Assembly (NCBI GenBank): GCA_001875365.1
Contig: MIYX01000020.1
Span: 1 to 40,977, forward strand
Length of the DNA: 40,977 bases
DNA from: Marine Group III euryarchaeote CG-Epi4
GTDB lineage: Archaea; Thermoplasmatota; Poseidoniia; MGIII; CG-Epi1
Reading direction: 5' to 3'
The position numbers and the translations under genes were made by a program. Position 1 is the stretch's first letter. Each line of letters starts with the position of its first letter. This document shows, piece after piece, positions 23,593-25,224 of this stretch. A model generated the notes under the pieces. The model did no database searches. It was not told the origin of the DNA and saw nothing but the letters and a program-made list of their open reading frames with translations.

Positions 23593-25224
23593 TTACTCTT
23601 CCTCAGAAGACTCATTGGGAATTGCTAATTCTCTCTCAAAGTCATCTTCATTTATTTCTTCCTCTAAATCTGGATCATTATCAGATGGATTAGAATCTAA
23701 CCCTTCATCTTCCATTCCACTGTAAATAACATATGAGCATACCGTTAGTATAATGAATACTGCAAATAACGTAAGCATATTCCCTGAGTCTGTGGTATCT
23801 TCACTTGTATCTCCTACTTCAACAAATTTCGACATTGAAAGAGTAACATTTCCTGAAGAACTTAAGTCTAAAAATGTGGTTATTTTAAGGGATAATGGTC
23901 CTTCCAAAGAAGCCTTCCATGAAATATTACCTGTAGTCTCTCCCTTTGGAGAAAGTGAAATACTTTCTCTAGCAAAACCTTTGTTGTTACTAATATCCAT
24001 ATCTAAAAATAAATTAGAAAAATTATAATCTGTTGGGTTTTCTATAGTTACAAGGACATTAATCTCAGACCATTTTGAAACAACTTGGCCAGGTTCCCAA
24101 ACGTTACCTGAAGCATATACTTCTGCAGACTTATATTCTATTGATGATAAATTGAGATTAAACAAACGAATTAAAACCGTATTTTCAGTTATGACTTGTG
24201 TCCATTTATCATCGACTCTGGCGAAACCAAAATTTGCAAATGCCGTAAAGCTAGCAATGTGATCAATACGCTGACCAGTTGAATCTATCTCATACTCTTT
24301 AGCCCAATTCCAAGTACCTAACATTTCGCCATCTGAATCCCATTGACGAACTTGAAAACCTAAAACAGGCAGATTAGTATTACTATCTACTGCAGCAAAA
24401 GTCACCCACCACTCTTGGGTCATCCACGAAGTACAATTAGAAAAAGTAACTTGATTTTGTACAGGTATTGATCCTATTGAACGAAGGCCTAATGTATAAT
24501 TCGAAATTGAAACGTTATCCATAGTTAAAATTGTATCTTCAGAGAAAACTCCATAATTTACAATACCATGTCCATCTAGTACAGCATTTTCAATACTAGC
24601 GTTTCCACCAACAAGCCAAATCATTGAATAATCTATAGTTGTTTCCGAAATAATTAATGAACCTGCGTCTGAAACTATAGTGTACATACTGTAAGAAAAA
24701 TTATCATCATTAATTGTTGAAATTGTACAATTAAAAATATTGAGACTTCCGGTTGAATTTACTCTAATCTCTGATATTGTCATATCTAAAGAGCGATTAA
24801 CGTTGATATGACTATTTTCGATGGATAAATTTCCATCAACTAGTATATCTTCTTCCAACCAGATTTGAGCGTTGGTAATTATCAAATCTTCTTGTAAATT
24901 AACATGCAGACCCATTGTAAAATTGTGCTGTAAAACAAGATGCAACGTTGCTTCACTCTGAATATTATAATCTGATAAAGTGCGATTATCCTCTAATAAC
25001 TTACCTGCAAAAAATAAAAGCTGACTTGCGGTGGGGATGTTCTCTTTATCCTGAATTTTTTGCTTGACATTAGCGATGCCATCATCCGGTTCAACATCTA
25101 AAACAATTGTCTCTTCTTGTAAGTCTTTAACAAATATTTGCATAGCTTCTGTATTTGCTGAAAAAAAACCGATAAAAACTAAAAAAAATATTGATGAAAG
25201 GAGCAAAACTCTAGCCATTCTCAT
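23593..25224 (-). CDS. Secreted, membrane-anchored protein with an N-terminal ubiquitin domain
   Basis: A 543-residue protein. Residues 1-27 are a signal peptide ending TEA. Residues 28-98 are a ubiquitin domain that begins with MQIFVK exactly where the mature chain should start. It keeps NVKQKIQDKE, FAGKLLED, RTLSDYNIQ and TLHLVL: 51 of 71 positions equal eukaryotic ubiquitin as I recall it. Lys48 of ubiquitin is kept (residue 75); Lys11 and Lys63 are lost, Ile44 is Phe, and there is no RLRGG tail, so conjugation is not expected. Residues about 100-270 are beta-helix-like repeats with N-x-S/T sequons, about 390-470 an Ig-like module, 483-503 a membrane helix, then an acidic tail. It heads the kae1-bud32 unit, and a TATA box 25 nt upstream fixes the start. 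The role is unknown. Confidence 0.88.
   Translation of the reverse strand: MRMARVLLLSSIFFLVFIGFFSANTEAMQIFVKDLQEETIVLDVEPDDGIANVKQKIQDKENIPTASQLLFFAGKLLEDNRTLSDYNIQSEATLHLVLQHNFTMGLHVNLQEDLIITNAQIWLEEDILVDGNLSIENSHINVNRSLDMTISEIRVNSTGSLNIFNCTISTINDDNFSYSMYTIVSDAGSLIISETTIDYSMIWLVGGNASIENAVLDGHGIVNYGVFSEDTILTMDNVSISNYTLGLRSIGSIPVQNQVTFSNCTSWMTQEWWVTFAAVDSNTNLPVLGFQVRQWDSDGEMLGTWNWAKEYEIDSTGQRIDHIASFTAFANFGFARVDDKWTQVITENTVLIRLFNLNLSSIEYKSAEVYASGNVWEPGQVVSKWSEINVLVTIENPTDYNFSNLFLDMDISNNKGFARESISLSPKGETTGNISWKASLEGPLSLKITTFLDLSSSGNVTLSMSKFVEVGDTSEDTTDSGNMLTLFAVFIILTVCSYVIYSGMEDEGLDSNPSDNDPDLEEEINEDDFERELAIPNESSEEE

Follow-up and report, generated by a model that had tools for sequence, protein, structure and literature searches.

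The window analyzed here comprises positions 1 to 40,977 of contig MIYX01000020.1 of the Marine Group III (MGIII) euryarchaeote CG-Epi4 (assembly GCA_001875365.1). Positions 23593..25224 of its minus strand are occupied by the gene for a surface protein of 543 amino acids, an assignment that draws on the open reading frame, its orthologues and a structure model. From the N- to the C-terminus, this protein consists of a signal peptide, a ubiquitin domain, a strand-rich body, a single transmembrane (TM) stretch and an acidic tail. The predicted signal peptide (residues 1-27; 25144..25224, minus strand), recognized by hydropathy and motif, ends with T-E-A directly in front of Met28, and the T/A-x-A motif is found at the same site in the six orthologues compared. 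Motif and hydropathy fit an archaeal surface protein that is exported and cleaved at Met28, so that its mature form would begin with Met1 of ubiquitin, as had been proposed in the preliminary description of this DNA.

The ubiquitin domain itself (residues 28-98; 24931..25143, minus strand) is defined by its identity to human ubiquitin, by the PF00240 profile and by the fold of the model. Alignment with residues 1-71 of human ubiquitin confirmed the 51 of 71 identities, without gaps, that had been counted by hand, and the Pfam profile search returned PF00240 with an E value of 8e-23 and 80.4 bits (curated cut-off, 25.4). The earlier assignment of individual residues also proved right for the window protein: Leu8, His68 and Val70 of the recognition patch are kept and Ile44 is replaced by Phe, while lysines 6, 27, 29, 33 and 48 are present and Lys11 and Lys63 are lost. 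A structure prediction, which had been suggested as a check, gave a model (pLDDT 74.2; pTM 0.55) in which fold comparison placed a ubiquitin fold at residues 28-102. All PDB matches listed for the 543-amino-acid protein were ubiquitins. Likewise, the Foldseek and VIA-align matches listed for the model were only ubiquitins or ubiquitin relatives, among them the structure 8hm2 of BfUbb (47% identity), and none of them concerned the body.

Directly behind the domain, and in place of the RLRGG tail of ubiquitin, lies the sequence N101-F102-T103 (24916..24924, minus strand), a candidate N-glycosylation-type sequon. It is one of 16 N-x-S/T sequons in the protein, 13 of which are located at residues 132-459, one inside the ubiquitin domain and one beyond the membrane stretch. 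The strand-rich body (residues 104-480; 23785..24915, minus strand), delimited by alignment and the model, is predicted to be extracellular and is common to orthologues that lack the ubiquitin domain. It is followed by the TM stretch (residues ~481-503; 23716..23784, minus strand), which was recognized by hydropathy and corresponds to a helix at residues 483-501 of the model. Such a stretch is present in 16 of 17 aligned ubiquitin-bearing proteins, and the remaining one (P0043) ends early.

The next gene downstream (22607..23587, minus strand) codes for TsaD/Kae1 (PF00814) and is the same neighbor in relatives with and without the ubiquitin domain; among the loci compared, its product is most similar to that of MGIII CG-Epi1 (L003; 96.6%). 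Upstream, a divergent open reading frame (25307..26116, plus strand) encodes a protein of 269 amino acids with a hydrophobic stretch that is likewise the same neighbor in relatives and had no Pfam match at an E value of 0.01. Where contigs were long enough, ubiquitin-bearing and ubiquitin-less loci alike had in common a large Ig-like protein, an FAD-dependent oxidoreductase (which, we presume, resembles geranylgeranyl reductases), the 269-amino-acid frame, TsaD and Bud32. Most neighbors with Pfam matches look like core genes, and this gene context gave no lead to the function of the surface protein. The large Ig-like neighbor (1772 amino acids; 27228-32546, minus strand) has a weak ubiquitin-like domain of its own at its end (27240-27440), which matched TUG-UBL1 with an E value of 8.4e-5 and 23.1 bits, just below the cut-off of 23.3. 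This end lies behind a hydrophobic stretch and, going by its position, on the cytoplasmic side. Thirteen of the 21 genomes in the order show a comparably weak ubiquitin match, so this domain is probably ancient and distinct from the captured one discussed here.

We searched 5.8 billion proteins for relatives of the surface protein; at least 7984 candidates were scored and 397 matches were obtained, the best 120 of which form the basis of the following counts. Ninety-eight of them have the QEWW motif of the archaeal body and 22 are eukaryotic-type polyubiquitins. Among the 98 archaeal orthologues, 29 carry the ubiquitin domain at the same place (24 distinct domains) and none was seen in the other 69; 67 of the latter reach the N-terminal end and truly lack the domain, while P0067 and P0076 are fragments without that end. 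In the order to which genome G001 belongs, the body was found in 20 of 21 genomes and ubiquitin above the cut-off in three, always in this gene. The preliminary description had looked to related genomes for support, and would have taken a fusion confined to the present assembly, or reads breaking at the domain edges, as a refutation. Recurrence in three genomes of the order and in 29 listed proteins, encoded on contigs of many sizes, speaks for an authentic fusion.

Fourteen loci were located in genome contigs, and their contigs are assigned to Marine Group III, Euryarchaeota, Poseidoniales or Poseidoniia, except for L006; three of these loci (L001, L002, L004) have the ubiquitin domain and all others lack it. 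The contig of L006 is assigned to a Flammeovirgaceae bacterium but carries a ubiquitin-less MGIII surface protein together with two archaeal neighbors and is likely misbinned. The named relatives are Marine Group III archaea. A PF00240 scan of 292 genomes of the class yielded five above the threshold, namely the three from MGIII together with G151 and G114. In G114 (L057, contig C59), ubiquitin is present in two broken frames beside eukaryote-like frames; this is likely a eukaryotic contaminant and was set aside. In the family of G151, the MGIII body had no match in six genomes, in a search run without a positive control.

Presence and absence of the domain are distributed as a mosaic. In a quick tree of the bodies with 90 rows (eight of the 98 orthologues, all of them ubiquitin-less, were left out because the cutting motif was not detected), ubiquitin-bearing and ubiquitin-less proteins are interleaved with nine changes, at least six of which are forced by starred branches. 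Shuffled labels gave a mean of 24.4 changes on the same tree, so the domain is clustered as well as mosaic. A second quick tree, built from a different cut and restricted to identifiers no higher than P0078 (65 rows out of 66), also contained nine changes, at least five of them forced, and a single ubiquitin-bearing clade was rejected on it (p-AU 4e-5), which led us to reject simple vertical inheritance accompanied by losses. The ubiquitin-less form is likely the ancestral one, since the domain is missing throughout the distant clade of the body tree (26 rows). Close relatives differ in this trait as well: the bodies of P0017 (with ubiquitin) and P0029 (without) are 0.949 identical, reaching 0.96-1.0 across the last 12 of 17 blocks. 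Conversely, nearly the same ubiquitin domain (0.99 identity of both P0016 and P0025 to P0020) sits on three bodies of different lineages.

DNA alignment of the ubiquitin-bearing locus L001 with the ubiquitin-less locus L003 locates the stretch in which the two forms differ (~600 alignment columns; approximate equivalent in the window, 24645..25240, minus strand). After 72 identical upstream bases, identity falls to 0.647 over the 368 bases compared in columns 100-700, which comprise the signal peptide and the ubiquitin domain, and amounts to 0.913 over 1357 bases downstream of column 700. The window, which carries the domain, is 0.817 identical to L001 in the front stretch and 0.835 in the remainder; compared with L003, the corresponding values are 0.671 and 0.838. 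By these stretch-wise identities, the body of L001 is closest to L003 and its front end is closest to the window. Between L001 and L003 the signal peptide is switched together with the ubiquitin domain, and we therefore rejected loss by deletion, which alone would not also swap the signal peptide. As far as can be judged from sequence comparison, the front-end pattern is of the kind that homologous recombination would leave on replacing the N-terminal end, with the joint in the DNA traced in this one gene pair.

Between 45 and 66 of the 71 human ubiquitin residues are retained in each of the 24 distinct MGIII domains, P0024 being at the upper end (66/71). Fourteen positions of the ubiquitin core are hydrophobic in every one of these domains (14/14). 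Positions 7, 9, 11, 20, 28, 39, 40, 53, 63 and others are altered in most domains. The residues of the recognition patch are as in human ubiquitin in 15 (Leu8), 11 (Ile44), 13 (Val70) and 23 (His68) of the 24 domains, and the lysines in 13 (Lys48) and 3 (Lys63). Columns that are invariant in all 24 include FAG, RTL and DYNIQ; together with the retention of His68 in 23 domains, this invariance makes a conserved contact possible. For six pairs of four genes, dN/dS was 0.03-0.20 in the ubiquitin part and 0.08-0.14 in the body, values that are rough, given the nearly saturated synonymous sites (pS 0.56-0.74 in ubiquitin). To all appearances, the MGIII ubiquitin is kept as a fold while its surface drifts, the Leu8-Ile44-Val70 patch included.

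Its tail ends at varying points (LVLRY, LVLRLSY, LVLRLGVEY, LVLQHN), and no double glycine occurs within 12 residues from domain position 71 onward in any of the 29 listed MGIII proteins. On account of the missing double glycine, we reject conjugation for these proteins and for five pilins described below (P0241-P0245). Lacking a usable conjugation tail, the domain would serve as a display module and not as a protein tag, in keeping with the earlier view that it is displayed and not conjugated. A search for E2 enzymes (PF00179) found none in 15 genomes, and the control genomes gave no match either. E1-like proteins (PF00899) were found in nine of the 15, a count that takes no account of genome completeness; among the ubiquitin-bearing genomes, G001 and G004 had no match and G002, G151 and G311 had one. 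E1-like proteins also work in other pathways.

Two further carriers were found in the Poseidoniia. Genome G151 (L056 1138-1926, plus strand; contig C11) encodes an archaeal type IV pilin (Pilin_N, E value 8.4e-8) with a nearly intact ubiquitin in its head. Eighteen ubiquitin-less pilins, taken from 21 loci of which three with longer frames were left out, align on both sides of this domain and have a gap at its place. Among the best 120 of 1021 matches to the N-terminal 118 residues, there were six ubiquitin-bearing pilins (P0241-P0246), on contigs of up to 475 kb. The ubiquitin parts of P0241-P0245 are identical to each other at 67-71 of 72 positions; P0241 is a near copy of the query pilin, from which P0242-P0245 differ considerably in their N-terminal parts (59-81% identity). 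Leu8, Ile44, His68, Val70, Lys48 and Lys63 are all retained in these five proteins, whose ubiquitin tails (LRLRSS, LRLSS, LRLRGN, LRLRGT) are without a double glycine. P0246 has the ubiquitin insert minus its end and is perhaps in the course of losing it. The model of the pilin is weak (pLDDT 69.3; pTM 0.46), with the N-terminal helix and elements of ubiquitin visible; the fold matches listed for it were only ubiquitins or ubiquitin relatives, with none for the rest.

The third carrier was found in genome G311 when 170 genomes from the G151 family were searched. It is a protein of 1085 amino acids (L090 617-3874, plus strand; contig C214) that starts like a signal peptide, matches PKD weakly (25.5 bits; cut-off, 27) and carries the ubiquitin domain in front of a Thr/Asn-rich stretch and a hydrophobic C-terminal segment. 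Its ubiquitin is diverged (61.5 bits; 45/71 identities to the polyubiquitin unit of P0119). We consider this carrier the weakest of the three because it was seen once, on a contig of 4.5 kb. Behind its gene lies a frame that, on reading, is integrase-like. Set apart by their build alone, the three carriers were judged to be of different kinds.

With respect to origin, the best 120 of 7991 matches to the domain of P0024 were ubiquitins, and the organisms named for them were all eukaryotes. The closest sequence seen was a unit of the P0119 polyubiquitin, to which P0024 is identical at 67/71 positions, the maximum for any MGIII domain against 149 eukaryotic units; the pilin domains reach 68-70 of 71, P0245 having the 70. 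Many archaeal domains have Asp16, Ala65 and often Gln28 in common with P0119. Asp16 is found in all 31 archaeal domains compared and in 28 of 149 eukaryotic units. The combination of Asp16 and Ala65 occurs in three of 124 eukaryotic units (P0119 included), and it is therefore a lead to, and not proof of, a single capture. Of the earlier expectations, the eukaryotic-type identity is borne out by P0024 and P0119, while the proposed tree of ubiquitins, 71 columns long and with stars on 4 of 149 branches, decides neither the donor nor the number of captures. A scan of viral contigs with P0119 (patterns KQKIQDKE and one other), too narrow to count against a viral source, gave a single locus, L093, whose ubiquitin-like frame (46%) is not near the archaeal domains. 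Going by these identities, the domain was likely captured from a eukaryote, probably a marine single-celled one, which agrees with the transfer proposed before.

The closest known counterpart is BfUbb, the secreted eukaryotic-like ubiquitin of Bacteroides fragilis, which is present in 13 of 97 B. fragilis genomes and inhibits other strains (Patrick 2011, PMC3352274; Chatzidaki-Livanis 2017, PMC5705921). As described there, it resembles the MGIII domain in being a eukaryotic-type ubiquitin of a prokaryote with a signal peptide that ends at Met1 (by prediction in MGIII), no terminal glycine and an occurrence in only some strains. However, BfUbb is a free secreted bacterial protein of 76 amino acids, whereas the MGIII ubiquitin is built as a domain into an archaeal protein containing a membrane stretch, is swapped as a cassette and has two further carriers. 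Because it is part of such a larger protein, we do not count it as a member of the BfUbb type. Eukaryotic ubiquitin and polyubiquitin share with the archaeal domains the fold and an ungapped sequence identical at up to 70/71 positions (P0245 versus the P0119 unit); in contrast to them, the archaeal domain is present in single copy, lacks the double glycine, is predicted to be extracellular and resides inside carrier proteins. SAMP, Urm1 and the Caldiarchaeum system have a beta-grasp fold with a double-glycine end and are conjugated in the cytoplasm. Unlike these, the domain described here is an internal part of a 543-amino-acid protein for which export is predicted, and it has a eukaryotic sequence without double glycine. 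With archaeal type IV pilins (PF07790), the G151 carrier shares the N-terminal helix and the pilin head, but it has ~75 additional ubiquitin residues between the halves of the head, where the 18 ubiquitin-less pilins have their gap. Among open-licence papers on ubiquitin in Marine Group II/III, Poseidoniales or Thermoplasmatota, on pilins and on secreted ubiquitin, no title or beginning of an abstract reports such a domain; in passages of PMC4378268, the subject is secreted ubiquitin hydrolases and not ubiquitin.

Our preferred explanation, to which we give somewhat better than an even chance, is that a captured eukaryotic-type ubiquitin forms the exchangeable, exposed and non-conjugated tip of the MGIII surface protein. 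A ubiquitin, likely from a marine single-celled eukaryote, would have been joined at Met1 to the predicted signal peptide and, through its truncated tail, to a surface protein for which a membrane anchor is predicted, where it would form a folded, non-conjugated cap at the outward tip. By sequence comparison, the signal-plus-ubiquitin end is traded between strains as a cassette. Homologous recombination at the conserved upstream region and body could convert a short ubiquitin-less tip into a ubiquitin-capped one; after an exchange, the ubiquitin surface would drift and the core would remain folded. The likely role would be that of a varying exposed tip: where viruses, grazers or neighboring cells touch it, its replacement might bring a gain. 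The domain, the absent double glycine, its presence or absence at a single conserved locus, the mosaic, the low dN/dS of ubiquitin and the insertions in two other surface proteins can all be read from the sequences as such. We infer that the protein is exported and cleaved, that the donor was a eukaryote and why selection would favor the exchange, including selection on the tip by viruses or grazers. The mosaic pattern also arises by neutral recombination.

Neutral recombination is an element of the view that the domain is a structural spacer or cap without a specific partner, for which any compact stable fold would suffice. A kept core with a surface free to drift, and the ubiquitin-less form on near-identical bodies, agree with it, and the low dN/dS, which counts against it, could be explained by constraint on the fold alone; the use of ubiquitin in three differently built surface proteins is, however, much to ask of a random choice of fold, and we regard this view as quite improbable. 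An origin of the fusion as an assembly chimera with eukaryotic DNA has a negligible probability: nothing in this gene speaks for it, and only the broken ubiquitin of G114 looks like a contaminant of that kind. It is rejected by the recurrence of the domain in 29 listed proteins, by its divergence (45-66 of 71 identities to human ubiquitin and at most 67/71 to any of the 149 eukaryotic units) and by the conserved neighborhood in relatives, and the G+C content of the domain (0.34) matches that of the open reading frame (0.33) and the window (0.36).

The remaining alternatives assign a partner or a target to the displayed domain. According to the preliminary description, it might be a ligand or a decoy for eukaryotic ubiquitin-binding proteins, for instance those of a protist that takes up or touches the cell. 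The drift of the patch (Leu8 in 15, Ile44 in 11 and Val70 in 13 of 24 domains) and of the lysines (Lys48 in 13, Lys63 in 3) leaves this reading unsupported for the MGIII protein, and ubiquitin-binding proteins are mostly cytosolic. It draws its strength from the pilins, with their nearly uniform ubiquitins on diverged N-terminal parts and their complete set of recognition residues. A specific binding role seems more likely there, on an almost unchanged ubiquitin surface, than in the MGIII protein. This near-native face could, however, reflect either selection or recent exchange, the pilin DNA with ubiquitin coming from one genome (G151), and as a general explanation we hold a ligand or decoy to be unlikely. 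An antagonism factor that, exposed or shed, harms related strains without the domain has its precedent in BfUbb, which begins with Met1 of ubiquitin behind its signal peptide, has no terminal glycine, varies between strains and inhibits other strains (PMC5705921); the MGIII ubiquitin is likewise polymorphic between close relatives. The fusion to a body with a TM stretch in 16 of 17 ubiquitin-bearing proteins, and the lack of an evident release site, make such a factor very doubtful. A wider reading, which we rate as rather unlikely, is that the marine Poseidoniia reuse eukaryotic ubiquitin as an extracellular handle, with one captured gene on at least three surface structures (an anchored rod, a pilus and a large stalked protein), where the pilus face would be kept by selection for eukaryotic partners and the MGIII rod would have the swappable, varying tip.

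The polymorphism, the cassette exchange and the further ubiquitin-bearing surface proteins go beyond what had been described for this DNA. Ubiquitin, among the most constrained of eukaryotic proteins, has its known role as a tag inside the cell. In these open-ocean archaea it occurs, stripped of the tag function, on three kinds of protein with predicted exposure, and on one of the three it is exchanged between strains. This amounts to a natural experiment on the ubiquitin fold in the absence of conjugation: in one carrier the surface drifts, and in another it is nearly frozen. Two questions thereby become testable: what touches these uncultured archaea, and which surfaces of ubiquitin are held by something other than eukaryotic enzymes.
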